The notes under the pieces: generated by a model | What the model was told of the DNA's origin: nothing | The model's input: the letters and a program-made list of their open reading frames with translations, nothing else | Databases searched by the model: none | In this document: piece by piece, positions 5,046 through 59,240 of the stretch | Numbering within the stretch: the first letter of the stretch is position 1 | Layout of the letters: each line of letters starts with the position of its first letter | NCBI GenBank assembly: GCA_030710605.1 | Contig: CP092880.1 | Span: 13,185,639 to 13,249,638 of the forward strand | Reading direction: 5' to 3' | DNA length: 64,000 nucleotides | Origin: Cordylochernes scorpioides | Taxonomy: Eukaryota; Arthropoda; Arachnida; Pseudoscorpiones; Chernetidae | Position numbers and translations under genes: made by a program

Positions 5046-6289
5046 ATTATAGTAGACATTTTTATAGGAAGCCGCTAAAAAAAAACATGGATATTCCTGG
5101 TTTTTCCTGGAGATAGTCGCTCATTGGAAGATGGACGAAATTAGAACTTTTTTTAAATTTAATTTTACAAAGGCGATCAATGCTCATTGAGATTCATCAG
5201 ATGAGTCGCTTATGATAGGTTTAACCGTATTATTGCCCTAACATGATTTCAATATTTCTACTCTTTCACTGTGATTTTTTTTGTCTTTCGCTTTCTAGAA
5301 ATGCAAATACAGTATACAAGCCCTGTTTCAAATTTGTAAAGCCCCTGTTTTTCGGTTGAAGAATTTAACAAAAGACAAAATGTCTTAATAAAAGCTTATG
5401 TATGGATGTGTATTATATGGAAATATCCGTTTTTATTATTTTATTTTTGATTATATATCAAACTTTATTTTTAATTTTTTGTTTTCCTTGGACTCTTCTT
5501 TCAAATCCATTTATGAAGCTAATTGTCTTGATTAGGTTTCCGTGAATATATCATCTTCATTAATGTCATTAAATGTAAATAGTATTTCTTTATTTAATTC
5601 TTTTTCTTGGCAACTATTTGGTGAACTTGTGTATAAGACTAGATGTCTTAATAAAATACTTTGTGTTTGTCTGTCATTGCTATCAAGGTAAAAAAACATG
5701 GTACTATACACGTAGAATATCATATGTATAAGTTGAACTCAATATGAGAAATTTCATCAACCTTTTAACTCTTTTCAACCATGTCCAGAAGTCCTCCTCT
5801 ACATGGCGGGTGGGAGAAGCAGCACAAGTAAGGGACTGCCCTGTAGTACGGTGTCGTGAGCCGCTACGGTAACCGTGAACAGGGAACTCTGAAATGTGGC
5901 TGACTAACGGAGCAATGACACCCTCCCTTACCATGGAGCAACAAAATCGGGAACTGAGGGGCCATGCTACTGCGTCCAAGGGAGCCGACACCCTGGGGCC
6001 TGCAGTCATGGGAACCAGTGGGAAATATGTTACGAGAAAATGGACAAGACACCACCACTCTATTCACCAACCTTTTGACAACCTACTGCCCAAATTTTCA
6101 GAGAAAAAGCTTTAATGTGATGAAAAAAAAAAAAAGATTATTTAAAGTCTGAATACAAACACACAGAGAATCTAAGGCTTTTACCTTGCAAATGACAACA
6201 GTGAGTTAGCGAAAGGTAAAAAAAAATTAAGTTAAGAAAAGGTTGATAAGTATCCATTTTGAGTTTATATAAATACAACCTATACATCT
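5046..6289. other. No gene; two degenerate retroposon tails
   Basis: AT-rich DNA holding two degraded copies of the hairpin-AATAAA tail, at about 5370-5405 (AAAATGTCTTAATAAAAGC) and 5632-5680 (AAGACTAGATGTCTTAATAA). The block at 5760-6110 is less AT-rich and open in several overlapping frames on both strands, but I recognise nothing in it. Confidence 0.45.
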
Positions 6290-6500
6290 TTAAAAAATAG
6301 ACACTTCGGCCAGTTAAAATTTTATTTTCTCAACGTTTCGAGCAAAAATAGAACAATTTTTAACGCCTTGCCAAATTCTTTATTTTTATTTCTCCTGACG
6401 AAGGCAAAAGATTTTTGGTCGAAACGTTAAGAAAATAAAACTTTAACTGGCCAAAGTGTCTATTTTTAAAAGAAATAGTAATGCCGGCCAGGCAACCTCT
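6290..6500. repeat. Foldback repeat with one hammerhead-like motif
   Basis: Inverted arms: GACACTTCGGCCAGTTAAAA on the left and its near complement at 6435-6465 on the right, around 100 bp apart. The right arm continues into TGCCGGCCAGGCAACCTC, shared with the foldbacks at 31.1-31.4 and 33.6-33.9 kb. Confidence 0.8.
6390..6433 (+). ncRNA. Hammerhead ribozyme motif (PLE/retrozyme type), arm copy
   Basis: CTGACGA (6395-6401), a stem II hairpin closing on TTTTTGGTC, then GAAA (6421-6424), CG, TT. A candidate stem I (TTTCT/AGAAA) flanks it with a mismatch next to the core. The core is intact; stem II has an imperfect base. The self-cleaving RNA function is inferred from the motif. Confidence 0.5.
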
Positions 6501-7234
6501 ATCTTTAATACAACTTATACAATAATGATTATTTCCTGTGTGTATCAGTTGAGTTAGAAAAACAAACGACAGTTTTCAAAACGCGGTCATTATTTTAATC
6601 TTCCATTATCATCACACTAACGTAACAATGATGAAAGTGAGTAATTGCTGGAAATTTTACTGGAAAATTTGTCTAACCTCATTTTAAAATGATTTTCAGG
6701 AAAGGAAAATTGGAGGGGAATTTTGTAGGAGGGAGAAATAGCGAAAACTTCAGGGCGAGGTCATTAGAAAAATGCGTTTTTTTTTTTTTAAATGTGAAAT
6801 ATGAATTATTAGCCATATCTTTGCCAGGTGAAAAATAAATGGCTTACAATCTTATCTTCATTTTCCTAATGTGGATGGATCCTATTATGATATTTTTCCT
6901 TGTTTACCAGGACGTATCTTTGGGCAATACATAATATATAATGGTAATATTCAGTCCAATCATGTGGAAAAATCCGACAAAAATTTTGAAATTGATAATA
7001 ATCTAAATTATTTCATAATGACACACACACACAAATTGTCATATAACTCAAGAGAATTACTTAGCCTTAAATAGGCGATAGTGTAGCAAATAGGAAATTT
7101 CAACTATCTGTTGAATCTGAAAGCCACAACACTCTTCATCTGTTGAGCCATTTATATCTGAAGCTATTGATAATGATAATGGGACATTAATTATATTTCT
7201 GTGATTAGATATATTAATACATTAATGTTAATAT
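6501..7234. other. No gene seen
   Basis: AT-rich, with a T-run near 6778 and a short CA run near 7021. The 67-residue frame at 6871-7074 has no recognisable content. Confidence 0.45.
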
Positions 7235-7500
7235 AAAAAAAGCCATAACCTGTTCACATGAACTTTTTAGATCGCTGAGCGCCATCTAGTGGAACAGAAA
7301 TCTACTAAACGTTGATTTAGCCTGTTCCCTGATATTTGGTCAACCCATTTTATTGATAAATTAAGAAAAGTCAACCAAGAACGCGTTTCGGGCTGTTGGC
7401 CCTCGTCAGCGTGGTGCAGACTGTACCTCTACGACCAAAAATGTGTTGATCCCAGAGGCTTCTTTAGAAATCAAGAAATGGGTATTTAATGTTTATATAG
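7235..7500. repeat. Ribozyme-bearing 'GATGGCGCTCTGCCAT' family, copy 1
   Basis: Contains GCGCCATCTAGTGGAACAGA, then AACGCGTTTCGGGCTGTTGG and a tail through TGCAGACTGTACCTCTACGA. Copies or fragments lie at 14750-15000, 18190-18390, 21045-21950 and 46660-46900. No protein is encoded. Confidence 0.75.
7374..7415 (-). ncRNA. Hammerhead ribozyme motif
   Basis: Minus strand: stem I strand ACCACG, CUGACGA, stem II GGGC/GCCC with a CAACA loop, GAAA, CGCG, UU, then CUUGGU. Stem II is perfect; stem I has one mismatch against the best copy at 21629-21670. CGCG is self-complementary, so stem III would be a tiny loop or form between two RNAs. Confidence 0.7.
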
Positions 7501-7507
7501 ATGGAAA

Positions 7508-8015
7508 AATTTAGCCGAGAGGAAATTGATCTATAAAAGCATAGCGAGCTTCTCCCGTCAAAATGGATGTCAAAGCTATACGCCCTCTATTGACCGTCGC
7601 CGGAAACTAGCGGCCAAAGGTCGGTGACAAAGCCACAACACCAGCTTTGGCAAACTGAGAAGCATCCACCTAGAGACCATGGTTTCGGGCTAATGGCCAT
7701 CTTCAGCCCAGAGCGGATCCATTTATATTTTGGTCATAGATTTGGCCTAGCCACTTTACCAGCTAAACACCTCTTTGGTAGATTGTGAAGATTCCATTTG
7801 ATCTCTTCTGGATCTCATAGAATAAAGTCCGCCTTAGGCTGACGAGTGTCATTAGCATAAAACCAAGCTCTCTAGGTGGACGCTTCTCAGTTTACCAAAG
7901 CTGGTGTTGTGGCTTTGTCACCGACCCGAGGCCGCTAGTTCGTGGCGACGGTCGGCATCTAGTTTTAGAATCTATTTTGATACGAGAAGCGCCAAATGCT
8001 TTTATAGAACAATGC
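7508..8015. repeat. Long palindromic repeat, CCGAGGCCGCTAG family
   Basis: Outer inverted arms of about 170 bp: the left includes CTCCCGTCAAAATGGATGTC and GACAAAGCCACAACACCAGC, the right their complements near 7895-8000. The centre holds AGCTAAACACCTCTTTGG and GTGAAGATTCCATTTGATC, also found at 11450-11615. A hammerhead-like string (minus strand, about 7682-7709: CTGAAGA, a weak stem, GAAAC, CATGGTC) sits at the inner edge of the left arm. Confidence 0.75.
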
Positions 8016-14509: not shown

Positions 14510-14735
14510 TATTTTTTTAAAAAAGGCCTATTTTGGATTTTAATACAATTATTTATTAATCCGATATTTCGATGGATCAATCTTCCATCTTTTACGAGGT
14601 GTTTTGCCGTGAAGCACGCAGCAGGTCGCGTGCTTCACGGCAAAACACCTCGTAAAAGATGGAAGATTGATCCATCGAAATATCGGATTAATAAATAATT
14701 GTATTAAAATCCAAAATAGGCCTTATTTTTAAAAT
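14510..14735. repeat. Near-perfect palindrome, 96-bp identical arms
   Basis: The arms from AGGCCTATTTTGGATTTTAA (left, from 14524) to GTGAAGCACGC are exact reverse complements for 96 bp round an 8-bp loop (AGCAGGTC). Imperfect pairing continues a further 10-15 bp. The transcript would be one long hairpin. Arm tips contain TCCATCGAAATATC, a GAAA-plus-palindrome string like the other foldbacks. Confidence 0.95.
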
Positions 14736-14749
14736 ATCAACTAATCGTC

Positions 14750-15000
14750 GATTTTTAATTATTCCAGAATTGGCCAAATACTTTTTTTTTTGATTAAACA
14801 AGAAAAGCTAACGATGTATCCGTTTCAAGCTGTTGACCTTCATCAGCGTGATGCAAGCTGTACCTAAACGACCATTCTCTTAAAATGGCAGAGCTGCATC
14901 TAGTGGTATAAAAATTAACTAGTTCAACGATATCTAGCCAAGTTAAATCAACATTCGATTTTTGCTCTACTATATGACGCTCTGCCATTAAAAATGCTAA
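14750..15000. repeat. Decayed copy of the ribozyme-bearing family
   Basis: Contains TCCGTTTCAAGCTGTTGACC..CATCAGCG (minus strand: CTGATGA, a weakened stem II, GAAAC) and GGCAGAGCTGCATCTAGTGG. Stem II no longer pairs fully and the stem III palindrome is gone, so the motif is probably dead. Confidence 0.55.
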
Positions 15001-15309: not shown

Positions 15310-16072
15310 CGAGGGGCATCCAATAAATAAGTTTCCCTATTTTGTAACAAATAAACAACTTTATTTACAATTATGCAGTTATTTTATTTTCATTATACAA
15401 CTCTTAGACTACTTCTCTACATAATCACCATTTCTGTCCAAACATCTTTGGTACCGTTGTAGCGATTTTTTGATACCACTGTTGTACAAGCCGTGTCCTG
15501 TCTTCGTAGCCAGTGGTTCGCCTCCGCCTGTTTTCAATTCAAATTCAAAACATCTGACATGATTGTTCCAATCGAAGAGCATCCAATTTCGATTCCAGGA
15601 GGCAGTCGAATCATTATTTCGTCAATGGTGACGCGGCGATTTGCTTACACCACATTCCGAACAGCAGCCACGGCTGCATTGTCCGTAGCAGTAACGGGCC
15701 TGTCGCTTCGCTCGTCATCATGCACGTTTTGCCGTCCTTCCAAGAACCATGAACGCCATCGACGAACCATTTGGATGCTCATACATCCTTCACCATACAC
15801 TGACACTAAATTGCGATGAATATTGACCGCAGTTTCATTTTTCGCTGTGAAAAAACGAATTACAGAACGGAGTTCGCAAGTGGACACGTTCACCAGTGGT
15901 AGCTCCATGGAAACTGAAGCGCTACGGACTTGCGCGTACGAGTAGAGTGATTTTGAAAGGTCACCAGCTTCCAACGCATCCTAGTGACCATTTCTTACCT
16001 ACTAACTAATTTTTACAACGTTTCGTTCGCCGAAAAAAAAAATAGGGAAACTTATTTATTGGATGCCCCTCG
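15310..16072 (-). mobile_element. Internally deleted mariner-like element
   Basis: Inverted termini CGAGGGGCATCCAATAAATA and its complement, each about 34 bp, flanked by the TA at 15308-15309 and 16073-16074. At 763 bp it is well short of the roughly 1.3 kb of a full mariner. It sits inside a satellite monomer whose pattern resumes on the other side. Confidence 0.9.
15645..15974 (-). pseudogene. Mariner transposase N-terminal fragment
   Basis: 109 codons containing the paired helix-turn-helix DNA-binding region: CELRSVIRFFTAKNETAVNI, then SIQMVRRWRSWFLEGRQ and DDERSDRPV, characteristic of mariner transposases. The frame then joins directly to a stretch resembling the extreme C-terminus (..LDRNGDYVEK then stop, read near 15410-15440), in a different frame. 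The whole catalytic D,D,D domain is missing, so this copy can bind termini at best and needs a transposase from elsewhere to move. Confidence 0.85.
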
Positions 16073-18189: not shown

Positions 18190-18390
18190 AACTACGCTTC
18201 AATATAAATAAGACTGACGAGGGCCAACAGCCCGAAACGCGTTCATGGTTGGCTTTTCTTGATTTATCAAGAAAATGGGTTGTCCAAATATCAGGGAACA
18301 GGCTAAACCAACGTTTAGTTGATTTCTGTTCTACTAGATGGCGCTCTGCCATCTAAAAAGTTAATCGAACATGGTCATGATATGTCTTTT
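18190..18390. repeat. Ribozyme-bearing family, 5'-truncated copy
   Basis: Begins at the hammerhead and runs through TTGATTTATCAAGAAAATGG, AACGTTTAGTTGATTTCTG and AGATGGCGCTCTGCCATCTA. Same order as 21624-21920. Confidence 0.75.
18214..18249 (+). ncRNA. Hammerhead ribozyme motif lacking stem I 5' strand
   Basis: CTGACGA (18214-18220), stem II GGGC/GCCC with CAACA loop, GAAA (18234-18237), CGCG, TT, CATGGT. Core and stem II are intact, but the sequence before the core (ATAAGA) cannot pair with CATGGT, so the repeat was truncated at stem I. Confidence 0.55.
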
Positions 18391-18734
18391 TTATTTTTAA
18401 AAAATTATTTTTCACATAAGAAAGGATATAAAATATGGCTACGATGTATTATGGATTTAAAAAAAAAGTCAGTTTTCTTGAATCAAGATAGTTTTCACAC
18501 AATCATTATCATTTATCATTACACAGCTTTCAACTCGAACTCCCCACCATGTCTTCAGAAACAAGTTTGGGAAGTACAAGATAAGCAGAATTCTTTAAAT
18601 GATGGGTTTTGTGCTTCATATTTGCCCCAATGGTGACAAAACTAAGGCAGGATCAGGAATAAAGCGGCTTTTAGAATATTGAGATGGGATCGAGTCATTT
18701 TGAAGGTCATCAGAAAAAAATTAAAAGAATTGGA

Positions 18735-19304: not shown

Positions 19305-20320
19305 TGTTTTTTGGTAAGGGATTGGAGTGTTAAAGAAAACCGTATAGTTGTAATAGCCTTACACAAGGTAGGCCAAAGTCCTTCATCAATTTTTAAACTT
19401 TTACAAAATTTTAATATTACGCGTCAATTTGTTTATCGAACCATTGAAAGGTTCAACAAGGCTGGCACTATTAATGACCTTGAAAGATCTGGTCGACCTC
19501 GCGTGCAACGAACGCAAGCAGCTATAAAAGCCATTCGCGAAAGAATTAGTCGAAATCCACGCTGAAAACAAAAGATCTTAGCAAAGCAGATGAATTTAGC
19601 TCCAAGAACCGTTTCCAGGATAATTAGCGAAGACCTTGGACTGAGAGCTTTCAAACGACGCACTGCTCTTAGAGATATTAGGTTTAGATCAAAAATGTTG
19701 TTGGCGCGACATGATGGTCGGTGGCATGAGATAATCCTTTTCACAGACGAGAATATTTTCACTGTCGAGGAAAATATTAATCGTCAGAATGATAGGATAT
19801 ATGCTCGTCTCGTAGCTCTCTTGAAGCTTCTTTGAGAAAGTCAGAAGACTTGAAAAAAGTCACCATCCTTCTTCTGTCATGGCTTGGTATGGAGGTAGCT
19901 ACCAAGGTGTAACAGATCTCCACTTCTGTGCCAAAGGGATAAAAACTACAGCTAAAATCTATCAAGAAGATATTTTGGAACAAACAGTAAAGCCTCTGAA
20001 TACAAAAATGTTTAATGGAGAACATTGGATATTTCAACAAGATTCAGCTCCTGCTCAAAAAGCTAAGTCAACTCAACAATGGTTGGAGACGAATGTTCCG
20101 GAGTTCATAAAGGCCAATGAATGGCCCTCTGGAAGCCCTGATTTAAACCCCTTGATTACAGTTTGTAGGCATATGTAGAGGAAAAGGTGTGCTCTAAAAG
20201 ATATCATAATATGTATAAAAGAAATGAAACCATATTTAGCACGGGTTTTCTCTTTTGTAAATAAAACGTTTCCTATTGTCCTTACAGCCATTGATGGGCC
20301 AGTTCCTCCCATTATGTTCT
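19305..20320 (+). pseudogene. Tc1-like transposase, broken
   Basis: A Tc1-family transposase in pieces. 19311-19565 holds the N-terminal helix-turn-helix (SIFKLLQNFNITRQFVYRTI) and the GRPRV hook; TGA follows at about 19563. 19566-19835 continues with NLAPRTVSRIISEDLGLRAF and the first catalytic Asp in ILFTDENIF. 19879-20155 resumes after a frame change with MAWYGGSYQGVTDLHF, the second Asp in FQQDSAPA and SPDLNPL, where a one-base loss next to the third catalytic position shifts frame and a TAG follows. A further in-register stretch runs to about 20320. Left terminus AGTCTGGCCATAAATATTA begins near 19166. No right inverted repeat was found; a mariner end abuts there. Not functional as read. 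Confidence 0.88.
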
Positions 20321-20729: not shown

Positions 20730-21008
20730 TGTCATAATATATACTCTTCCAGGAATAATAAAGCCAACCTACAGGCAGCGCAGAGAGAGACGGGAGGGTA
20801 AAAGTCCGGTCACTTGAGACATCAGCGACATTCCAAGGGGCGACCACTGGGGCCCGTTAGTTAACATCTCGGGACTTTTAACACAGTTGGGGATTGTGTG
20901 CGACACGAACGGCCGCCCGGCTGTGCCAGTCCCCTCTCTCTCTCGGGTTGTCTGGGTTTCTATTCCAACTTGGGGTGTGATTATTTCTCTTCCTACCTTA
21001 TTATACCA
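20730..21008. mobile_element. Solo LTR-like element, family C (279 bp)
   Basis: Starts TGTCATAATATATACTCTTC and ends CCTTATTATACCA, with TATA on both sides. The inverse copy at 35639-35938 shares the whole body (GACGGGAGGGTAAAAGTCCG, GACATCAGCGACATTCCAAG, GTGATTATTTCTCTTCC) and ends TGTGACA..ATGACA. Orientation of transcription is not clear. No internal region accompanies either copy. Confidence 0.65.
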
Positions 21009-21172
21009 TATATGTATATATTAAAAACAAAAGAGGCATATTCTGACCAGGCTCACATGAGCTTTTCTAGATGGCTGAGCGCCATCTAGTGGAGCAAAAA
21101 TAAACTAAACGTTTATTTAAATTACTCCGTGATAATTGGCCAACCCAATTTCTTGATAAATCATGAAAAGTC

Positions 21173-21623
21173 TGACAAATGTTACTATTATAGGATAACA
21201 CACAAAGTTGCAAATTACTGGGTCCTAAATTAATAATAACTAACAGACAGAAAAGCGCACACTCAAGAGTACAACAACAACAATAAAAAAAATTAAAAAC
21301 TCACGATTTGCTATATAGAAACAAAGCAATATTTATCTTTTATTGTAGCGTTGGTAGGGATCGGACCGGGGTCACACAGGTATGCGAGGAGATCACCAGA
21401 CACGGATAAATCACGTGAGAACACTTTAAGCGTCTCCACACACAATATCCACCACCCACTTCTCGCAATACCATAGCCCCCTTATATATACAGACATGGC
21501 CACATTTGTCCAATGAGAAGAGGTGAGATATTGGTTCACTATCAAACGAAAACAAAATCCTTCCCACTAAAACCTGAGAAAATATTTTTAAAAAGTGCAA
21601 ATATTTGTCAATATAATTTGATA
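21173..21623 (-). mobile_element. Solo LTR, family A (minus)
   Basis: 451 bp between a 4-bp target duplication AGTC (21169-21172 and 21624-21627). Plus strand starts TGACAAATGTTACTATTATA and ends TTTGTCAATATAATTTGATA. On the minus strand it has a TATATAAG box and, downstream, the TACAATAAA-type signal, giving promoter and polyadenylation site in LTR order. Five further insertions in this window share the sequence. Confidence 0.9.
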
Positions 21624-21628
21624 AGTCA

Positions 21629-21670
21629 ACCACGAACGCGTTTCGGGCTGTTGGCCCTCGTCAGCGTGGT
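21629..21670 (-). ncRNA. Hammerhead ribozyme, complete motif
   Basis: Minus strand, in order: ACCACG, CUGACGA, GGGC-CAACA-GCCC, GAAA, CGCG, UU, CGUGGU. Stem I (ACCACG with CGUGGU) is six perfect pairs, stem II four perfect pairs, and all core residues match the hammerhead consensus. Stem III would be the self-complementary CGCG closed by A-U, too small for a stable loop, so cleavage may need a dimer, as reported for hammerheads in Penelope-like elements. Predicted cleavage is after the GUU triplet (between 21635 and 21634). Self-cleavage is inferred, not shown. Confidence 0.8.
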
Positions 21671-21986
21671 ACAGACTGTACTTCTACGACCGAAATTTGG
21701 TCCCAGAGGCTTCCTGAGAAATCAAGAAATAGGTATTTAAGGCCAAATTTTCGTTCGTGGTTGACTTTTTTTGAATTATCAAGAAATTGGGTTGGTCGAT
21801 TATCACGGAGAAAGTTAAATAAACGTTTAGTTTATTTTTGCTCCACTAGATGGCGCTCTGCCATATAGAAAAGCTCATGTGAGCCTGGTCAGGATATGCC
21901 TCTTTTGTTTTTAATATCAAGACCTGACCATTTTTTATTGTTTTTTTCACATAGATATATATAATTAACATTCTCTTTGACGCTTG

Positions 21987-26895: not shown

Positions 26896-27650
26896 TTTAT
26901 ATACATCTCTTCTTTAGACTTCTTCTTTCTTATCTCTACTCAATCATATATTACGGTAGGACAACCAACATGACTGGGTGAAGTATAATACGTCTGCCTT
27001 TGTCATTAAGACTGGGAGCACCACTCAGTGGCAGGCCGACTTAACTCCAAAAGAAATGGCCGCCTCTGACATGAGGAACAGACGCTATGTGCAGCCGCTC
27101 CTAACATACTATATACAGTTACGAGCGTCTTTCCTAATCCGTCAATCCGTCATCGGCCGCCTCTGTCACCGTTTGCTTTTATTGGTTGGCTCCCGTCACG
27201 CCACCTTTGCCCCCCCCCCCCCCCCCTCCCTGCCGGCGGCGCGCGCCCGTTGGCTGCCGGCGAACACGTGACTTCCCTGTGCGCGCGCATGGCGGGCGGT
27301 AGGCTATAGTTATTCTATATACAGTTACGAGCGTCTTTCCTACGGAAGCCAACAGTACATAGGCAGATAAAGCACATAGGCTATAGTTATTAACTAATAT
27401 ATGCATTTATTTAAGGCGCCAATTTATAATTGTAACAAATAGTATTTGAATAAAAACATTCAATCGGGTAAAACACGGGCGTTGCCCGGGTCATTCGGCT
27501 AGTGGAGTACAAACGCTTCTCATCCTGTATCCCTGGATTAGGAGCCCTTACTATCAGCCGGGCCAGCTGAGCCCAGGTTTTTTAGTGAGCTTGTTACTGC
27601 TCCTCCTCCTCCTTTTTCATCCGGGCTTGAGACGGTCAAAGGCGGAGTTT
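26895..27650 (+). repeat. Family D repeat, copy 1, interrupted by a Helitron-like element
   Basis: Starts TTCTTCTTTCTTATCTCTAC and contains GTCTGCCTTTGTCATTAAGA, GGCAGGCCGACTTA, GGCCGCCTCTGACATGAGGA, CCCTGGATTAGGAGCCC and CATCCGGGCTTGAGAC. Other copies: 39240-39430, 43570-43905 and 54690-55070 (the last three on the minus strand). It may be a SINE or a fragment of a LINE; no tRNA head is visible. Confidence 0.7.
27107..27502 (+). mobile_element. Non-autonomous Helitron-like insertion
   Basis: 396 bp interrupting a family D repeat between ..GCTCCTAACA and TGGAGTACAAA. The uninterrupted copies near 43715 and 54855 read straight through, so the empty site is known. There is no target duplication. 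The 3' end has a GC hairpin (CGGGC-GTT-GCCCGGG), seven bases, then CTAG followed by T, as in Helitron 3' ends. The 5' motif CTATATACAGTTACGAGCGT occurs twice (27109 and 27314), the second time preceded by TT, as TTCTATATAC. It contains a run of 17 C near 27210. Confidence 0.7.
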
Positions 27651-27824
27651 CTTTAGACTTAAGTTTATCAAGTGATCCAACAGAATTCTTATCATCAATC
27701 TATGTTCCTGATTTATAAACCGTTAAGATCATCCACATCTTCACGAGGGAATTAGGTCTAGATATATTGGTGGCTAATAGATCTCAGATAGTTTTTATAT
27801 CTTGGGTTATATATCGCCTTGAAC

Positions 27825-30640: not shown

Positions 30641-31074
30641 ATCCATGTTACAATACCTTTCCTTCATTAAGTATAAAATCACAAAAAAAAAAAAACGTTT
30701 CTATTATGTTCCATATAACTTCATTTTGACAAAGAGGTATAAATTCTTGTTGAAAAACCGCTGCCACACCAAGTTGGGGTATGAATGAAGGGTGAGGTTT
30801 GGGACGACTACAAATTGATAGATACATCACCGGCTTGGGACAAACCAGGTGTGTCCACTTCATCAATCCACCACGCCCTGCTCAAACAAATTTCTTCTTC
30901 TTCTTTATAAATCACCCGGCGATGATGTGAAATTTTGTTTGCTTCTCTCATTGCATCTTCTAATTAATTACTCCATCTTATAATGATCGATCAAAATTTT
31001 TGTTTAGTCAGAACTACTGAATAATTTGTGTTGAACTATTGAAAAGATATAGAATGCCTGGCCAGCATTCATAG

Positions 31075-31395
31075 TTCTTAAAATTAAAGATACTTCGACC
31101 AATAAATATTTTTATTGTCTCGACGTTTCGACAAAAATCTTTGTCCTCGTCAGGAGCGAACAAAAATTAAAACCTTTGGCAAAGCGTTAAAAATTATTCT
31201 AAGGCTTTGAATCGTGCTTTAGATGTTGTACAAAATTTGAAATACTGCGTATGAACGCCCTTATAGCCTTAGAATAATTTTTAACGCTTTGCCAAATGTT
31301 TTCATTTTTGTTCGCTTCTGCCGGGGACAAAATATTTTTGTCGAAACGTCGAGATAATTAAAAGATTCACTGGCCGAAGTATCTTGAACTATTGT
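31075..31395. repeat. Foldback repeat with a hammerhead motif in each arm
   Basis: Arms of about 140 bp: AAATTAAAGATACTTCGACC..GGCAAAGCGTTAAAAATTAT on the left, the inverse at 31258-31385. Same family as 6290-6500 and 33570-33870. Confidence 0.88.
31119..31156 (-). ncRNA. Hammerhead ribozyme motif, left arm
   Basis: Minus strand: CUC, CUGACGA, GGACAAA..UUUUUGUC hairpin, GAAA, CGUC, GAG. Core intact; stem I is CUC/GAG; cleavage expected after GUC. Stem II begins with one extra base. The partner motif in the right arm (31313-31355, plus) is mutated in the core (CTGCCGG). Confidence 0.55.
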
Positions 31396-33269: not shown

Positions 33270-33570
33270 GGGCGGAAGACCACCCGCCTGCCACGGTCTC
33301 TAGTTAGGGCTCAATGTGGTGAGATTAGGACGTTGCTGTTGATGAGGGCATCCACCCTGAGTCTGCCTGCTGCTGCTAGGCTGTAGCTTTGTTCACCTCA
33401 GCCTGCCTGCCTCATCTCACTACATCCTTCCAAATCTTCTATCCATCTTGACAGAACATAGCCACCGATATACTAAATGTTATGTACACTAGTGATCGAT
33501 ACATAACGGCCTTTGTTTATGAAAGATAGAAAAAAATATTCAACACTATTTTAAACATTCTTCTACTCTT
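33270..33570. other. GC-rich then mixed spacer
   Basis: GCCTGCCTGC and CTGCTGCTG runs at 33355-33415, then ordinary AT-rich DNA. No gene recognised. Confidence 0.4.
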
Positions 33571-33610
33571 CAAATTAAAGACACTTCGGCCAGTAAATCT
33601 TTTTTATTGT

Positions 33611-33649
33611 CTCGACGTTTCGACAAAAATCTTTTGTCCTCGTCAGGAG
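33611..33649 (-). ncRNA. Hammerhead ribozyme motif, left arm
   Basis: Minus strand: CUC, CUGACGA (33646-33640), GGACAAAAG..UUUUUGUC hairpin, GAAA (33621-33618), CGUC, GAG. Core intact, three-pair stem I, cleavage expected after GUC. Stem III is a two-base CG, so a dimer would be needed. Confidence 0.6.
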
Positions 33650-33758
33650 CGAACAAAAATTAAAACATTTGGCAAAGCCTTAAAAACTATCCTATTTTAT
33701 TAGATGAGATTAAGAGAATAATTTTTAACGCTTTGCCAAATGTTTTAATTTTTGTTCG

Positions 33759-33797
33759 CTCCTGACGAGGACAAAAGATTTTTGTCGAAACGTAAAG
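33759..33797 (+). ncRNA. Hammerhead ribozyme motif, right arm
   Basis: CTC, CTGACGA (33762-33768), the same hairpin, GAAA (33787-33790), CGTAAAG. The core is intact but the cleavage triplet has changed from GTC to GTA and stem I is weaker. Confidence 0.5.
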
Positions 33798-34212
33798 ATA
33801 ATAGAAAAAATTACTGGCTGAAATAGCTTTAATTTGAAGAACTATGAATGCCGGCCAGGCAGCCTCTATCTTTACGATTCCTCTACTCTGTTGAAAAATT
33901 TTATTCATTTTTGACGCGTATGATTCTTTTAAAAATAAATCAATTTTCTAATGCCCTTACTGCAATATGATTACTTAAGTTTGAATAAGCTTGCACTCAC
34001 TGATTTTTTGCCGTATCTCTTTTTATAAAAGATACATTTATTAAATTAATTTTTTAAAGTAGAAATTTCAAAGCGACACTTGAAGTTACACCGCATGAGT
34101 TTCTTTTCAATGAAAAATCAAAATTCTATTTCAAGGTGAAATATTGACTATTTCCAACCTTTTTGGATGAGGTATGAAAGGGTGAATTATGAAGAGTAAT
34201 GATGAACGGAAA

Positions 34213-39051: not shown

Positions 39052-39238
39052 CACACATGGACAAAACTTAAGGAAGTTGTACCTTTCAGCATGTATATCG
39101 GGATTTAGACAATAACTCTGAAGGATATTTGATAAACAGTGACCTTTATTGAAGACACACGAGAAAACAAAGGGTGAATAAAATTGATTCTGTCTCCTTA
39201 AAAAAATATTTTCCACTTTCTTAAGTTTTGTCCATGAG
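39052..39238. mobile_element. Tc1/mariner-type MITE (CACTCATGGACAAAAC family), copy 2
   Basis: Left end CACACATGGACAAAACTTAA preceded by TA; right end CTTAAGTTTTGTCCATGAG, after which the expected TGTA is lost. Internal match to 3915-4142 includes AGTGACCTTTATTGAAGA and ACACGAGA. Confidence 0.78.
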
Positions 39239-39239
39239 T

Positions 39240-39430
39240 TTTTCTGACGGTCCCAAGCCTGAATGAAAAAGGAGGGGAAGCATTAACAAGCTCACTAAAA
39301 ACCTGGGTTCAGCTGATAGTATCCTGTAAGGCTCCTGATCCAGGGATACAGGATAATCTATACTCCATGTTAGGAGTGGCTGTACCTGGCGTCTGTTCCT
39401 CATGTCAGAGGCGGCCCTGTCATCCGAGAG
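39240..39430 (-). repeat. Family D repeat, copy 2
   Basis: TCCCAAGCCTGAATGAAAAA, CTCCTGATCCAGGGATACAG, CTCCATGTTAGGAG and TCCTCATGTCAGAGGCGGCC match 43600-43770 and 54715-54905. It abuts the MITE exactly and runs into a GC-richer segment (39430-39640) with an unassigned 139-codon minus-strand frame (..AIAVEFGGESPAGLQGHQ..). Confidence 0.65.
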
Positions 39431-43569: not shown

Positions 43570-43905
43570 TACTTGTTCCGCAACTCCGCCTTTGCCGGTC
43601 CCAAGCCCAGATGAAAAAGGAGGAGGGGGAGCAGTAACAAGCTCGCTAAAAAACCTGGGCTCAGCTGGCCCTGTAAGGGCTCCTGATCCAGGGATACAGG
43701 ATGAGTTTGTACTCCATGTTAGGAGCAGCTGCATATGGTGCCTGTTCCTCATGTTAGGGGCGGTCATTTCATATTAGAACTAAGTCGGCCTGCTACTGAG
43801 TAGTGCTCCCAGTCTTAATGACAAAGGCAGACGCATTCTACTTCCCCCAATCACTATGAAGCTCTACAGACTTGATACCCTGATATGATTGAGTTAATAA
43901 AGAAA
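43570..43905 (-). repeat. Family D repeat, copy 3 (uninterrupted)
   Basis: CCGCCTTTGCCGGTCCCAAG, GGGAGCAGTAACAAGCTCGC, CCATGTTAGGAGCAGCTGCA and GACAAAGGCAGACGCATTCT. This copy gives the empty site for the Helitron-like insertion at 27107-27502. Confidence 0.75.
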
Positions 43906-46660: not shown

Positions 46661-46900
46661 TTGAAACACTATTGGTCAGCTAAACATTCATTCGATCACT
46701 ACAGCCTACTCCACGATGACGAGCGCTAACAGCGCGAAACGCTTTCGTGGATAGCTTTTCTTGATAAATCAAGAAATTGGGTTAGCCAAATATCAGGGAA
46801 TAAGTTAAATAAACGTTTAATTTATTTTTGTTTCACTAGATGGCGCTCTGCCATCTAAAAAGCACATGTGCTTTTTGTCAGGATATGTCTTCATTTTTAA
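46661..46900. repeat. Ribozyme-bearing family, copy 5
   Basis: Contains the variant hammerhead at 46711-46750, TTCTTGATAAATCAAGAAAT, and TAGATGGCGCTCTGCCATCT, as in 21770-21880. Confidence 0.75.
46711..46750 (+). ncRNA. Hammerhead variant with covarying stem II, mutated core
   Basis: CCACG, ATGACGA, GCGC-TAACA-GCGC, GAAA, CGCTTT, CGTGG. Stem I and stem II pair perfectly, and stem II differs from the other copies at both partners of one pair (GGGC/GCCC to GCGC/GCGC). The first core base C is A here, so cleavage is probably lost. Confidence 0.55.
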
Positions 46901-47347
46901 TATCAATACTTAACAGGTATGGCCAGGTCATTTGTCTATAGAGTGAAATAACAAAACAATAAACTTTTTTTTTTTTGGAATATAGGTGTTGTAAGAGTTT
47001 TTTTTTTATGGGAATAAGATAAGGTTGTGTCGCTCTGTGGGCCACGAAATCACTCTTATACTTGAAACAAAAATCCTTTATTTGTCAAGCTAAAAGCTAC
47101 AGTAGCAAAAGGCGTTTAAAGCAACAAGACTACTCTATTCCTAAGGCTGGATTGGACTCTTCAACTTGATCCATACCTCCTATTTATAGCACAAATATGT
47201 TAAACTATTAAAATTGTACTACACAAAGAGCAAATATGCAAAGACACAACAGGTTGGATTCATAATTAAGTTTAAAATGAGTTAATTGAACTTTTTTAAA
47301 ACTTCATTTGGAAGGTTGTTGGCCATTTTAAGGAAAACTTGTTTTCA
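46901..47347. other. No gene seen
   Basis: Mixed DNA; 47030-47200 (CTAAAAGCTACAGTAGCAAA..) is less AT-rich and might be a retroelement end. Nothing certain. Confidence 0.4.
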
Positions 47348-48473: not shown

Positions 48474-50072
48474 CTAAGCAACAGCCGATGTGCGAGTTAC
48501 TCCTCCAACACTCCCACCTAACGAGCACTTTGTTGTTTCAAACAGTCCAAGTTGGCTTCTTAGTCTTCTATACCTTTCTGGAGGTAGAGCTTTCGTAAAT
48601 ATGTCTGCAGCTTGATCATTGGAGCAGACATAAAGAAGGTCAATTGCATGTTTTTGAAATTGGTCTTTGATAAAGTAAAACGAAATATCAATATGTTTAG
48701 TTCTTTTGTGGTATTCTGGGTTGTGAACAAGTCTTATGCAGCTTTGATTGTCGCAAAAAATTGTTGTAGGCTTTACTTGTTCTTGATGTAGCTCGGGTAG
48801 AAGTTGTCTCAGCCAAATTGCTTCTTTCGTTGCTTTGGAAGCCGCAATATATTCAGATTCTGTTGTTGACAGAGACACACAATTCTGTTTTTGACTGCAC
48901 CAAGAAATAGGTTCATTATTCAACATGAACACATATCCGGTGGTTGATTTTCTTGTGTCTAGGTCTCCAGCAAAATCAGCATCGGAAAAACCTATCAGAG
49001 ATGTAGTGCAGGAACTCCCACCAAAACAAATACCGATGTTTTTCGTAGCTTTTAAGTATCCAAATATTTTCTTTACTGCGGTCCAATGTGAAGGTCCTGG
49101 GTTGTTCATAAATTGGCTAACCCTGCTGACTGCGTAGGCAATATCAGGTCTAGTTCCAGTCATGAGGTACATTAAACTACCAATTGTCTGTCTGTATGGA
49201 ATCTTGTTCATTTCTTCAATTTCCTGATTATCCTTTGGGCACATCTCTTTTGTTAGTTTTGGGTAAGGATCAGAAGGTACAGATTGTAACTTAATTTCAA
49301 GAAGGTTGTAATGTTCAAGTGTTCTTTCAATGTATGAGGCTTGATGTAGAAATAACATTTTATTTGATCCATCTGCATTTTGCTTTATTTTGTATACCCA
49401 CTTGCATGCAATAACTTTTCTGTCTGATGGTAGTGTCACATAAGTCCATGTTTGATTTTTCATCAAGGAATTGAATTCATCGTCCATAGCTAGTTTCCAC
49501 CTTTTTGAGTTTTGTCCTACAATTGCATCTTCATAGTTCAATGGTTCTTGGTCATGGACATAACAAGCATATGAAATAGCTCTTGTACAGTTGGTTGATG
49601 ATTGTTCCTTTTCTCTGATTCTATTCCTGAGAGGGTATAGACATGATTCTTCTGGTTTGGAACTGGTATTTGTGCTATCAACACTTTCTTCACTATATAT
49701 AGTTACCTGCTCTTGTTGGTTATCCTGAATATTTTCTGATGTATTAGCTTCAGTAAATATTAGATCTCTGCTTATGATAATTTTTCTAGCAATAGGATCC
49801 CACATTCTATAATTTTTGTTAGTTTCAGTATATCCAACAAAAAATGTACGAATACTCTTTTTGTCTAATTTCTTTCTGTTATCTTTTGGTATATGCACAT
49901 AAGCGTTACATCCAAAAGTTTTCAAATGTAAGATGGAGGGTTTTCTCTTGTACCATATTTCATAAGGTGTAGAATTTCCCAATACTTTAGTAGTACATCT
50001 ATTTAAGAGATAGATTGCTGTGTTTACGGCTTCAGCCCACAGTTCAAGCGGCATTTTTCTTCCATGTAACAA
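48474..50072 (-). pseudogene. copia integrase C-terminus, RT remnant and RNase H
   Basis: 532 open codons. The first 110 or so finish the integrase (..ELWAEAVNTAIYLLNRC.., ..SILHLKTFGCNAYVHIPK.., ..TFFVGYTE..). RT starts at about residue 190 with WKLAMDDEFNSLMKNQTW and CKWVYKIKQNADGS, then jumps to KMLFLHQASYIERTLEHYN. The fingers and palm with the YVDD motif are absent, an in-frame loss of roughly 190-200 residues compared with copia family length. RNase H follows: GFSDADFAGDLDTRKSTTGY, LSTTESEYIAASKATKEAIW, FCDNQSC and RTKHIDI, with all acidic residues in place. It ends inside the 3' LTR. The protein could not reverse transcribe. Confidence 0.92.
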
Positions 50073-50829
50073 GCATCTAGCTGATTCAACTATTGTTCTG
50101 TTTTCTCTTTCAGAAATTCCATTCTGTTCTGGGGTATATGGAGCAGTGAGTTCATGAACAATTCCTAGAGATTTTAGATAATCAGAAAAATTCTTATTTA
50201 AGAATTCTGTGCCATTATCTGTTCTGACTTTTCATTTTATTTCCAGTTTCAGTCCTAACTCTTTTTACAAATTCTTTAAATTTCTCAAGTACATCTGATT
50301 TATGCCTAATGAAGTAGGCCACTCTAAATCTTGAAAAATCATCCTTGAATGATACAAAATATAATGATCCACCTGGTGATCTTTTACTCATTGGTCCACA
50401 AACATCTGAATAGATCAGCTCTCCTGGATAGGTCAAATTTGGACTTGTTGACGCGTGAAAAACTTTTCTATTTTGTTTTCCATGGATGCATGCTTCACAT
50501 AGTGAAGAATAAGGCTTTTCTCTAATTTTAATGTTTTCTTCAAAAACATTATTTTCAAACATTTGGGTTAATTTTATAGGATTTACATGACCCATTCTTT
50601 GATGCCATATATCTAGACTTAACTGAGCAACATGAGTTTGTGAAGATTGCTTTGCTTTAATAAAAATTCTATAAAGATTTGAATTGTCCTTTATTCCAGT
50701 AACTAGCACTTTCGAATTTTTTGTCAATTTTATCTGATTTCCTTTACAAATGAGCGTCAAACCAGGTTTTGTTGCAGTAGATATTGAAAAAAGATTGGTC
50801 TCCAATTCAGGTATATAGAGAACATCCAA
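50073..50829 (-). pseudogene. copia GAG-pre-integrase and integrase core, frameshifted
   Basis: 205 codons (50215-50829) read DVLYIPELETNLFSISTATK, then the zinc-binding pre-integrase region WHQRMGHVN..C..C (LCEACIHGKQ), and the first integrase Asp in LIYSDVCGPM. A shift near 50225 (run of A) sends the frame to a stop. The continuation in the next frame holds the second Asp (DNGTEF) and the catalytic Glu region PEQNGISERENRT up to 50073. DDE residues are thus all present but not in one frame. Confidence 0.9.
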
Positions 50830-51137
50830 ATAAGAGTTGCATTAATTTCCTGACTATCAACATAAGAGAGAATATCAATATTTCCCTTACCTTTTGCATA
50901 GATCTTCTTTCCATCTCCAAGGCACACAGGATGAACACCTTCTGGTATTTCTTCGAACGTAGAGAACCATTCTCTTCTGAAAGTAATGTGATCCGTTGCT
51001 CCAGAATCTGCAATCCAGGAATCCTTTGTTTCAGCGAGGAAGGCACTTGTCTCAGCTGAAAAAGCACAGCTATCATCTCTGGCTGAAGAACTTGGCTGTT
51101 GTCCTTTTTGTTCTTCCTTTCTTTTATAGCATTCTTT
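50830..51137 (-). pseudogene. copia protease region
   Basis: In frame with gag but between two lesions: the TGA at 51138-51140 and a shift near 50835-50850. Contains WIADSGATDHITF, the retropepsin-like DSG active site with the catalytic Asp codon at 51006-51008. It normally cuts the Gag-Pol polyprotein. Confidence 0.85.
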
Positions 51138-51932
51138 CCATCAATGTCCTTTCTTCTTGCAATATCCACAGTGTGTGTTCTTCTTTTTATCTTTAATGGA
51201 TTGTTGATGCTGCTGTTGTTTGTTGGAAGCTGTTGAATTTCTGTTGAACTTTGAAAAAGTCATCAAGGCATTATCTGGTTTAAAATTTCCTGAAGAATCC
51301 CAATGATCCTGTAAGCTTTCTTCTTTCAGTAATCTTGCCGTCAAGTTTTCTAGAGTCTTTTCTTCTGATGAAACTGAATCCCACGCTGTTATGAAATGCT
51401 TATATTTATCAGGCAAGCTGCAAATTATCTTTGTAATTAGGGCAACATCAGAGATTGGCTCACCTAGATCTTTCATTTGTTGTGCCTGAGTTTCAACTTT
51501 GGAAATGTGAGAAGCAATGTTATCAATTGGATTCATTTTATATTCGAAAAATCTTTGTTACAGCAAATATTTGTTTGTTTCAGATTTCAGTTCATATATT
51601 GTTGATAATTTCTTCCACATTTCTGCTGAAGTCTGGCAATTAACAACCTGTTGAAGATATTTAAACTCTAGAGCAGTAGTGATCAGAATTTTGGATTTTG
51701 CATCTTTCTTTTTCCATTCAGAGAATTTTGCAATATTCTCTATTTCAGGTTTTACTTCAGAGCCATCAGTTATACTGAGAAGATCTTTTGCTTCTAGAAT
51801 AATCTTCATTTGAAATTTCCATAGATGAAAATTATCGCCGTTGAATTTTTGAATTTGTGGAAGTTCAGTTGTCATCTTGAGCAAGCAAACGAATTTCAGC
51901 TTAGATAAACAAAAATATTTGATACCAACCAA
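51138..51932 (-). pseudogene. copia Gag, interrupted by stops
   Basis: Gag begins at MTTELPQIQKFNGDNFHLWK (ATG about 51873), with 20 extra codons open upstream. It includes ..ALEFKYLQQVVNCQTSAEMW and, after a single TAA at 51555-51557, continues in the same frame: ..MKDLGEPISDVALITKIICS, LPDKYKHFITAWDS, ..LTARLLKEE. The zinc knuckle CGYCKKKGH is cut by TGA at 51138-51140 where a residue before WKEC is expected. Two single-codon lesions in an otherwise well-kept gene fit a recent loss. Confidence 0.9.
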
Positions 51933-52175
51933 GCTCTGCTGCCATGTAAGAGAATCAGAGGCTGGATCTCAAAAGTATTGTTTAATTAACAATAATATTA
52001 TATTAAGATGACAAGGAACAAAAAGAGTCAAAAAAGGCAAGCGTAGGGGCAGACAACAAAAGCAAAACTGAAACTTATACAGGTACGGCCGGTCGGAGTG
52101 GCGCCAGGTCACGTGATGTCTGGGGGAAGGTGGCGTTGCTAAGCAACAGCCGATGTGCGAGTTACTCCTCCAACA

Positions 52176-54689: not shown

Positions 54690-55070
54690 TATAAAACTAA
54701 CTCCGCCTTTGCCGGTCCCAAGCCCGGATGAAAAAGGAGGAGGGGGAGCAGTAACAAGCTCGCTAAAAAACCTGGGTTCAGCTGGCCCGGCTGATAGTAC
54801 CCTGTAAGGGCTCCTAATCCAGGGATACAGGATGAGCAGTGCTTGTACTCCATGTTAGGAGCAGCTGCACATGACGTCTGTTCCTCATGTCAGAGGCGGC
54901 CATTTCTTTTGGAGCTAAGTCGGCCTGCACTGAGTAGTGTTCCCAGTCTTAATGACAAAGGCAGACGCATTATACTTCACCCAATTATGATGGTTGTCAA
55001 ACAGACACCATCAAGGGTCACAACTTGATACCCTAATATGTTTGAGTGGAGATAAGAAAGAAGAAAAATA
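54690..55070 (-). repeat. Family D repeat, copy 4 (longest)
   Basis: CCGCCTTTGCCGGTCCCAAG to TTGAGTGGAGATAAGAAAGA. It includes a segment absent from copy 3, ATGATGGTTGTCAAACAGAC.. between 54988 and 55020. Confidence 0.75.
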
Positions 55071-57200: not shown

Positions 57201-57365
57201 TCAAAAAGAATCAGACGCGTCAAAAATAGCTTTAAATTCTTATATTGTACACTATAATGGACAATTGAGTGTTAATTGAGACACGATCGACTTTAAGTAT
57301 TTAGAGTTTTAAAGTATTGAATCACACGGATTCAATACCGTATCAGGAACATATAATACTGTATA

Positions 57366-59240
57366 CACTCATGGACAGAACTTAAGGAAGTTGTACCTTT
57401 TAGCATGTATATCGGGATTTAGACAATAACTCTGAAAGATACACTCATGGACAGAACTTAAGGAAGTTATACCTTTTAGCATGTATATCGGGATTGAGAC
57501 AATAACTCTAAAAGATACACTCATGGACAGAACTTAAGGAAGTTGTACCTTTCAGCATGTATATCGGGATTGAGACAATAACTCTAAAAGATACACTCAT
57601 GGACATAACTTAAGGAAGTTGTACCTTTCAGCATGTATATCGGGATTGAGACAATAACTCTGAAATATACACTCATGGACAGAACTTAAATAAGTTGTAC
57701 CTTTTAGCATGTATATCGGGATTGAGACAATAACTCTGAAATATACACTCATGGACAGAACTTAAGGAAGTTGTACCGTTCAGTATGTATATCGGGATTG
57801 AGACAATAACTCTGAAAGATACACTCATGCACAAAACTTAAGGAAGTTGTACCTTTCAGCATGTATATCGGGATTGAGACAATAACTCTGAAAGATACAC
57901 TCATGGACAGAACTTAAGGAAGTTGTACCTTTTAGCATGTATATCGGGATTGAGACAATGACTCTGAAAGATACACTCATGGAAAGAACTTAAGGAAGTT
58001 TTACCGTTCAGTATGTATATCGGGATTGAGATAATAACTCTGAAAGATACACTCATGGACAGATCTTAAGGAAGTTGTAACTTTTAGCATGTATATCGGG
58101 ATTGAGACAATAACTCTGAAAGATACACTCATGGACAGAACTTAAGGAAGTTATACCTTTTAGCATGTATATCGGGATTGAGACAATAACTCTGAAAGAT
58201 AAGCTCATGGGCAGAACTTAAGGAAGTTGTACCTTTTAGCATGTATATCGGGATTGAGACAATAACTCTGAAAGATACACTCATGGACAAAACTTAAGGA
58301 AGTTGTACCTCTTAGCATGTATATCGGGATTGAGACAATAATTCTGAAAGATACACTCATGGGCAGAACTTAAGGAAGTTGTACCTTTTAGCATGTATAT
58401 CGGGATTGAGACAATAACTCTGAAAGATACACTCATGGACAGAACTTAAGGAAGTTATACCTTTTAGCATGTATATCGGGATTGAGACAATAACTCTGAA
58501 AGATAAGCTCATGGGCAGAACTTAAGGAAGTTGTACCTTTTAGCATGTATATCGGGATTGAGACAATAACTCTGAAAGATACACTCATGGACAAAACTTA
58601 AGGAAGTTGTACCTCTTAGCATGTATATCGGGATTGAGACAATAACTCTGAAAGATACACTCATGGGCAGAACTTAAGGAAGTTGTACCTTTTAGCATGT
58701 ATATCGGGATTGAGACAATAACTCTGAAAGATACACTAATGGACAGAACTTAAGGAAATTGTACCTTTTAGCATGTATATCGGGATTGAGACAATAACTC
58801 TGAAAGATACACTCATGAACAGAACTTAAGGAAGTTATACCTTTCAGCATGTATATCGGGATTCAGACAATAACTCTGAAAGATACACTCATGGACAAAA
58901 CTTAAGGAAGTTGTACCTTATAGCATGTATATCGGGATTGAGACAATAACTCTGAAAGATACACTCATGGACAGAACTTAAATAAGTTGTACCTTTTAGC
59001 ATGTATATCGGGATTGAGACAATAACTCTGAAATATACACTCATGGACAGAACTTAAGGAAGTTGTACCTTCTAGCATGTATATCAGGTTTCAGACAATA
59101 ACTCTGAAATATATTACAGTGACCTTTATTGAAGACACACGAGGTAACCAATTGTGAACAAAATTGTCTCTATCTCCTTAAAAAACGGACAACCATCGAT
59201 ATCAAAGACTCTCCACCACTAAGATTTGTCTCTATGAGTG
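57366..59240. repeat. MITE-derived satellite: about 23 tandem copies of a 76-bp terminal segment
   Basis: Unit: GATACACTCATGGACAGAAC, TTAAGGAAGTTGTACC, TTTTAGCATGTATATCGGGA, TTGAGACAATAACTCTGAAA. This is the first 76 bp of the CACTCATGGACAAAAC MITE. After the last unit the rest of the MITE follows once (AGTGACCTTTATTGAAGACA..) with a degraded right terminus (TTTGTCTCTATGAGTG), and TA stands at both outer ends (57364-57365, 59241-59242). Units near 58200-58500 and 58501-58805 share a four-unit pattern of variants (AAGCTCATGGGCAG, then CTCATGGACAAAAC with CTTAGC), a higher-order repeat. Confidence 0.93.

Follow-up and report, generated by a model that had tools for sequence, protein, structure and literature searches.

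In the stretch of Cordylochernes scorpioides DNA analysed here (the window, 64,000 nucleotides; contig CP092880.1, positions 13185639-13249638, within a 2.62-Gb genome of 24 contigs), the minus strand at 21629-21670 reads ACCACG-CUGACGA-GGGC-CAACA-GCCC-GAAA-CGCG-UU-CGUGGU, which raises the question of whether this is a hammerhead ribozyme and what kind of element brought it there. The first-pass annotation had described a complete minimal hammerhead in a dispersed foldback repeat, and its reading of the strand is correct letter for letter: stem I is paired at 6/6 and stem II at 4/4 positions, and all core positions are right. The motif has the features of a minimal type I hammerhead, i.e., a CUGANGA...GAAA...UH core, stems I and II and a strand that ends in stem I. 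Past a 3:1 internal loop, stem I is extended by AGUC/GACU (21674-21677 with 21624-21627). The features of the locus, its relatives and neighbours are summarized in Table 1.

Table 1. Coordinates of the hammerhead, the foldback that carries it, related repeats and other elements (window positions unless a genomic contig, C1 or C14, is given)
Feature	Position	Strand	Details
Minimal type I hammerhead	21629..21670	-	stem I ACCACG/CGUGGU, core CUGACGA, stem II GGGC/GCCC, loop CAACA, GAAA
Hammerhead stem III ACGCGU, self-complementary	within 21629..21670	-	predicted cleavage after 21635 (GUU)
Outer stem I helix, 3' strand GACU	21624..21627	-	covarying AGUC/GACU, AGCU/AGCU, AGCC/GGCU
Outer stem I helix, 5' strand AGUC	21674..21677	-	partner GACU at 21624-21627
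Foldback left arm, 5' part, with hammerhead	21623..21751	-	self-BLAST; genome copies match 21620-21754
Foldback left arm, 3' part	21021..21172	-	ends at T1, no tail
Nested 450-bp insert, unrelated dispersed repeat	21173..21622	.	AAGTC duplication 21168-21172 and 21623-21627
Foldback right arm, head-to-head	21752..21949	+	5'-truncated within hammerhead, ends at T2 with tail
Hairpin around T1	21887..21929	+	GGTCAGG (21887-21893) with CCTGACC (21923-21929)
Putative target-site duplication, left copy	21007..21020	+	CATATATGTATATA; 12/14 match, A+T-rich
Putative target-site duplication, right copy	21950..21963	+	CATAGATATATATA
f1-type repeat	7228..7489	-	intact core, single stem I mismatch
f1-type repeat	18214..18400	+	5' truncation at first core base
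f1-type repeat	46700..46909	+	stem II GCGC/GCGC, stem I U-A pair, C3 = A
Relative nearer the 338-bp tandem subfamily	14732..14874	-	hammerhead 14817-14846, stem I mismatched
Family 2 (PLE pLTR) head-to-head pair	31043..31388	.	hammerhead 31122-31153(-), partner core degenerate; 11-bp duplication TTGAACTATTG
Family 2 head-to-head pair	33567..33874	.	hammerheads 33614-33646(-) and 33762-33794(+); 12/13 target duplication
Family 2 head-to-head pair	6287..6507	.	hammerhead 6395-6429(+); 14/15 target duplication
CCACTAGATGGCGC-type sites	7279-7292, 18331-18344, 21079-21092, 21843-21856, 46833-46846	-, +, -, +, +
Ty1/copia element	48474-51965	-	several open frames: gag, integrase, start of RT
Satellite	57363-59113		23 copies of 76-bp unit, 94% match
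Mariner-type transposase pieces	15648-15980, 19825-20175	-, +	HTH_48; DDE_3 below cut-off
Divergent GIY-YIG ORF pair	C1:119836583/119840556	-/+
Divergent GIY-YIG ORF pair	C14:2435506/2439230	-/+

A strict scan of the 64 kb, which required the core together with a run of three or more adjacent pairs in both stem I and stem II, found 21629-21670 as the sole site, versus a mean of 0.03 in 200 dinucleotide-resampled windows; a looser scan found five sites, where 150 resampled windows averaged 0.15. An Rfam search of the whole window, the kind of covariance-model comparison that the first-pass annotation had named as able to overturn its reading, gave no hammerhead family, neither at gathering nor at E<=10. 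This negative result speaks for a chance match to the hammerhead pattern; against it, the probability of such a match is negligible, given the 0.03 sites expected per resampled window and the genome-wide count of a 30-nt core pattern, CTGANGANNNNYAACANNNNGAAACGCGTH, which has 31,786 exact matches (15,873 forward and 15,913 reverse), versus 0 for the reversed pattern in the 2.62 Gb. Because copies throughout the genome keep the hammerhead core, the Rfam miss is probably a limit of models that expect a stem III, nearly absent here, and not a refutation. A slightly relaxed core pattern was found in 25 of the 26 fetched loci related to the 21-kb copy. The 21-kb motif belongs to a noncoding repeat family of very large size. 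When viral contigs were scanned by pattern for the f1 and f2 cores, 0 matches were obtained.

Three subfamilies were distinguished: f1, which includes the 21-kb copy, f1b with stem II GCGC/GCGC, and rz with CUGAUGA and GUC. Across a hand-picked set of 24 subfamily sequences (21 distinct), 93.2% of the cells were paired versus 85.5% when shuffled, double-change cells numbered 26 versus 10.4, and the covariation score was 0.253 versus at most 0.048 when the pairing was slid, the slid controls having at most three double-change cells. Pairs with a double change, of which there were 4, were no more numerous than in shuffles (3.7), since it is a few subfamilies that the changes set apart; the covariation thus amounts to few subfamily differences, that is, few events in the right places. 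The window holds five cores of the f1 type, at 7380(-), 14817(-), 18214(+), 21635(-) and 46716(+). Only the 21-kb copy is fully intact and passes the strict stem test (1/5), the other four having mismatches in stem I, no 5' strand or an altered C3. Stem I, the outer stem I helix and stem II covary among these five copies, with 89.1% of cells paired versus 80.3% when shuffled and at most 41% in slid controls; double-change pairs numbered 5 versus 2.1 in shuffles (equalled by 8 of 500), and the number of further pair types was not above shuffles.

The ACGCGU of stem III provides an A-U pair closing CGCG in one molecule and a six-pair duplex between two molecules. Folded with ViennaRNA, two copies give a dimeric hammerhead as the best structure. 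Since 77% of 200 shuffles gain as much over two monomers, the dimer gain is unremarkable, its free energy was rejected as evidence, and the predicted dimeric hammerhead fold is suggestive only. Within the 21-kb locus, an antisense arm at 21752-21767 pairs 16/16 with the 3' stem I strand of the ribozyme, and the local 191-nt transcript is ~14 kcal/mol less stable when held in the hammerhead fold (-44.2 versus -58.2). By this folding model the 16-bp antisense pairing would hide the ribozyme, probably outcompeting and silencing it in read-through RNA despite the perfect motif, and the 21-kb copy is therefore probably inactive in such RNA. This competing arm, together with the single f1-type core of five that passes the strict stem test, would also suit a dead relic, i.e., a fossil hammerhead that is inactive everywhere. 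That reading appears quite unlikely for the family, in which the core is kept in 31,786 matches, the stems covary around an unchanged core and some arrays consist of near-identical units (L066).

The description of the surroundings as a dispersed foldback holds as well, the arms at 21018-21172 and 21763-21917 being inverted and 94% complementary, with many copies in the genome. Directly 3' of the ribozyme the left arm is split by the 450-bp insert, a later event than the foldback. The 3' ends of the arms lie at two different positions of the unit, here named T1 and T2: the left arm ends at T1 (21021) and the right arm at T2 (21949, after TTTTTTTCA). The 12/14 match between the flanks was equalled by 11 of 400 random flank pairs, and no duplication was seen when the right boundary was placed before the tail, where 312 of 400 random pairs did as well. 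Target duplications taken singly, that at the 21-kb copy included, make a weak case because they are A+T-rich. The 21-kb copy is not tandem.

The footprint was followed in a sample of the first 30 pattern matches on contig 1 (L036-L065; 27 distinct places), to which L067 and L069-L073 were added; L067-L073 had been chosen for neighbouring inverted matches. L044, L053 and L065 were dropped as equal to L043, L052 and L064, and L068 as equal to L064, whereas L036-L038, which resemble copies of one larger duplication, were kept. The loci were mapped on both units in circular coordinates, arm ends being BLAST ends and hence approximate, and arms of 60 nt or less were excluded from the arm-end tally. 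With T1 and T2 windows set post hoc (T1, 19-30 in rz and 32-45 in f1b; T2, 67-82 in rz and 75-81 in f1b), 60 of the 67 arm 3' ends fell at one of the two sites (33 at T1 and 27 at T2; 7 elsewhere), while 68 arm 5' ends were scattered. The 27 distinct head-to-head pairs comprised 19 of T1+T2, two of T1/T1, one of T2/T2 and five unclassified, so T1+T2 accounts for 19/22 of those classified. In the subset unselected for arrangement, T1+T2 was found in 14 of 21 pairs (14/17 classified, binomial p 0.013), or in 13/16 classified pairs when those of L036 and L037 were counted once (p 0.021). A flank match score of at least 9 was reached by 18/27 pairs (19/28 with L068) versus 159/754 mismatched flank pairs. 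The clearest target duplications are of 11-12 bp (TTACTTATGTGT and TTATAGATACTA); they are A+T-rich as a class, those of L039 and L041 being plain AT repeats. The foldback is an insertion footprint, with head-to-head arms that end at two positions of the unit, often between target duplications. Long inverted arms are also what a DNA transposon of the foldback or MITE-like kind, bounded by terminal inverted repeats, would have, carrying the motif by accident, but we consider such an element very improbable here, as the 3' ends of the two arms differ, the 5' ends are scattered, and single-arm and tandem copies exist.

Head-to-head arms might also arise by self-priming or a template jump of one cDNA through a hairpin intermediate. 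Self-priming on an antisense template is the route favoured in an account of Penelope-like elements (PLEs), given palindromes at the junctions (PMC3846280). For the present repeats we regard this as somewhat unlikely: the T1+T2 pairing and the variable junctions are what two separate start sites would naturally yield, and a PLE protein cuts and extends both strands in vitro, with reverse transcription starting at two adjacent sites in a stem-loop, according to PMC11167929. In our repeats T1 itself sits in a hairpin loop, the stem being GGTCAGG/CCTGACC in f1 and f1b and GATAAGG/CCTTATC in rz. For this hairpin 92.9% of cells were paired versus 82.9% when shuffled, with 14 versus 6.5 double-change cells; just two pairs vary on both sides, versus 1.8 in shuffles. 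The fold outperformed shuffles in the window arm (z -2.0) and in L056 (z -3.1), but it did not in L073 (z -0.19), nor in family 2 (described below), where the stretch is too short for its stem (z 0.25). In the PLE at L082 the matching place folds as CUGGCCG/CGGCCAG (z -1.55).

The scattered 5' ends were also considered as marks of ribozyme cleavage. Three truncated arms (21752, 48182 and 6287-6350) begin roughly 4-13 nt upstream of the predicted cleavage site. The larger sample of 68 ends showed no cluster of starts just upstream of that site, and as only 1/68 lay exactly on it and window copies begin ~4-110 nt upstream (BLAST ends), this use of the 5' ends is unsupported. Linear cleaved monomers are therefore not the usual complete template.

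The body of the repeat resembles a retrozyme. At L066, five 338-bp units follow one another in tandem, every one with a hammerhead, and L067 and L074 contain tandem dimers with hammerheads, while the first 30 loci are mostly non-tandem within 3 kb. An alignment of 196 columns shows 78% identity between f1 and the 338-bp unit, and upstream the two have another block of 38 nt in common; the f1b unit is 348 bp long. G+C is 41% in the 338-bp and 40% in the 348-bp unit, and the longest ATG ORF in a unit dimer is 44 aa. When 13 PLE peptides (10 endonuclease and three RT, the latter all from the GIY-YIG-first type) were compared by tblastn with the window and 74 fetched f1/rz loci, many of which are only 0.8-3 kb long and some of which overlap, three matches of 28-34 aa were obtained, two of them overlapping. 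Unit size and G+C lie within the limits used for metazoan non-LTR retrozymes (unit ~150-450 bp, G+C below 45-50%), hammerhead-bearing tandems occur and coding capacity is absent. As the 338- and 348-bp units are tandem and without long ORFs, the element would, judged by sequence, best be filed as a metazoan non-LTR retrozyme. It departs from plant LTR retrozymes, which are also marked by a PBS and a PPT, in two respects: the hammerhead topology is type I and not type III, and the duplications are ~10-15 bp and not 4-bp target-site duplications.

Metazoan non-LTR retrozymes are described as having type I hammerheads, units of ~170-400 bp in tandems from dimers to multimers, low G+C, no ORF, a weak stem III in some and, in some genomes, copy numbers in the tens of thousands (PMC7229834), and the present repeats are alike in hammerhead type, unit size, tandem arrangement, G+C, lack of ORFs, weak stem III and copy number. 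They differ in the head-to-head arms, the two-site 3' ends and the start hairpin, which are common here and are not described in the available text of that account, the main text of which does not contain the word inverted. The satellite-type hammerhead repeats of newt and axolotl (~330-350 bp), likened here by description and not by sequence, share the unit size, the dimer logic and a very short stem III with a palindromic loop, while an insertion footprint is not among the features given for them in PMC7229834.

The insertion footprint, in contrast, is that of PLEs. Their pseudo-LTRs (pLTRs) are characterized as inverted, mostly head to head, with a tail on one of them and target-site duplications (PMC3846280), and f1/rz repeats have the same head-to-head inverted arrangement, one-arm tail, target duplications and A+T-rich targets. 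The two adjacent start sites of reverse transcription, the start in a stem-loop and the priming of both strands recall PAc (Poseidon of Anolis), for which PMC11167929 also gives hammerhead cleavage as dispensable for insertion by the PLE protein, a further likeness; unlike f1/rz, PAc is autonomous, and its hammerhead overlaps the ORF start.

Minimal hammerheads were reportedly described in the pLTRs of PLEs by Cervera and De la Pena (2014) and Lunse (2017), and f1/rz shares this motif with them. Initially, f1 was itself taken for the terminal repeat of a PLE. PLEs are abundant in the genome, with 146 GIY-YIG matches among the best 150 of 17,015 scored candidates, and 36 of these loci (16 + 20) were sampled. 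A second repeat, family 2, follows the endonuclease in sense in 16/36, and 18/36 have a hammerhead-like core 554-617 nt away from where the endonuclease match begins. Family 2, found behind GIY-YIG ORFs, is therefore a true PLE terminal repeat; all three of its pairs in the window are head-to-head, with a ~33-nt tail on one arm and duplications of 11-15 bp. At the corresponding place, f1/rz was found in sense at 0/36 loci, 29 of which are informative, seven (L075-L080, L088) being mostly inside the ORF and hence unable to show a terminal repeat. One antisense f1/rz fragment was present at L103, and stretches beside GIY-YIG-first ORFs (seven upstream and two downstream) gave f1/rz matches of at most 34 nt. 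No RT and GIY-YIG ORF flanked by f1/rz was thus seen among the sampled loci, a difference from PLE pLTRs, and Pfam on 38 of the 46 stop-free window ORFs of at least 100 aa detected no PLE, only copia, mariner-type pieces and weak others. The initial idea was dropped on the 0/36 loci and the peptide search. It remains the main rival in the form that f1/rz is the pseudo-LTR of an autonomous PLE with rare or unsampled coding copies, the ORF-less tandems being deletion products. The shared footprint, the abundance of PLEs and the hammerheads of pLTRs favor this possibility, which we nonetheless judge unlikely: family 2 occupies the terminal-repeat place in 16 loci and f1/rz in none, PLE coding sequence in the 74 f1/rz loci, many of them short, is limited to the three short matches in a search whose RT peptides were all of the GIY-YIG-first type, and the tail continues into the 5' part of a next unit rather than into an ORF (L041, L056, L064, L073).

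Several other features were noted. In L075-L080, L088 and L091-L099 the GIY-YIG domain opens a long ORF (Pfam in 3/4 submitted), and in the two GIY-YIG-first ORFs examined, the RT motifs GVPMGTSSSP and YVDD lie ~1.8 kb beyond it, which is PLE-like with a permuted domain order. Coding PLEs also occur as divergent inverted GIY-YIG ORF pairs a few kb apart (Table 1). A third hammerhead-like family forms a head-to-head pair at 7525-8013, with CTGAAGATGGCCATTAGCCCGAAACCATGGTC at 7675-7706(-), a degenerate core at 7839(+) and CCATGG as its palindromic stem III; this pair showed no target duplication. The 10-kb stretches L012, L014 and L015 have hammerhead-like cores of other types, e.g., CTGATGAGGGCCATAGCACGAAACCATGGTA, with up to eight pattern matches per 10 kb in L015, some perhaps by chance. 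In the L064/L068 array the hammerheads are spaced 114 bp apart and the rz units are without ~224 bp. All long f1 copies in the window carry CCACTAGATGGCGC or a one-base variant, and with at most one mismatch there are six window matches (the sixth at 39733) versus 0.13 expected. We take CCACTAGATGGCGC to fit the CTCF core consensus, and a retrozyme that spreads CTCF-like sites would merit attention. Type-P1 twister matches below the Rfam cut-off of 67.2 bits lie at 54694-54748(+) (47.7 bits) and 43577-43631(+) (38.8 bits), with weaker ones at 39218-39280(+) and 27600-27654(-) (24.2 and 23.2 bits). Alongside the hammerheads, the window thus apparently has a second class of retroelement ribozyme; PMC7761336 mentions RTE retrotransposons that carry truncated twisters at their 5' ends.

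A hammerhead RNA without a protein of its own, inserted by PLEs, is the simplest account of these results, and we think it probable that f1, f1b and rz are noncoding non-LTR retrozyme-like RNAs inserted by PLE machinery. The repeat would be transcribed as multimers or circles, and the hammerhead, which should be weak alone because its stem III is only the self-complementary ACGCGU, would act mainly as a dimer and trim the RNA to units. The machinery of a putative helper PLE would then copy the RNA into A+T-rich DNA at a staggered cut. Reverse transcription would start from either side of this cut, using T1 in the hairpin loop on one and T2, ~35-50 nt beyond, on the other. The two converging cDNAs would join head to head at no fixed point and leave a foldback and a target duplication of ~10-15 bp, and the 21.6-kb copy would be one such finished insertion. 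Overall, the interpretation given in the first-pass annotation is borne out in part. Its proposal that the copies may be products of a mobile RNA agrees with arm 3' ends that are fixed and 5' ends that are scattered, with the target duplications and with the ORF-less tandem units. The hammerhead structure is backed by covariation, and the pointer to Penelope-like elements and retrozymes was apt, the body being retrozyme-like and the insertion footprint Penelope-like; the self-cleavage of the RNA is a prediction.

Animal retrozymes are stated to have no conserved motif that points to an autonomous partner, and PLEs have been put forward as candidate movers on the basis of co-occurrence, tandem copies and shared hammerheads (PMC7761336). 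A 2024 review still names LINEs or PLEs (PMC11722881), and a literature search mostly within non-subscription titles returned no later title on retrozyme movers. Positional evidence for PLE-type insertion, which bears on how animal retrozymes move, is provided by the T1/T2 rule together with the target duplications and the start hairpin. Chances appear about even that animal retrozymes at large are parasites of Penelope elements, as Alu is of L1, with a PLE-type start hairpin, two-sided insertion at T1 and T2 and a foldback whose antisense arm silences the ribozyme. Through the f1/rz footprints the proposal of PLEs as movers becomes testable, as the T1/T2 footprint can be checked in the retrozymes of mussel, coral and axolotl and in a PAc-like biochemical assay, and the 31,786 exact cores in one genome give a measure of how far such an RNA spreads.
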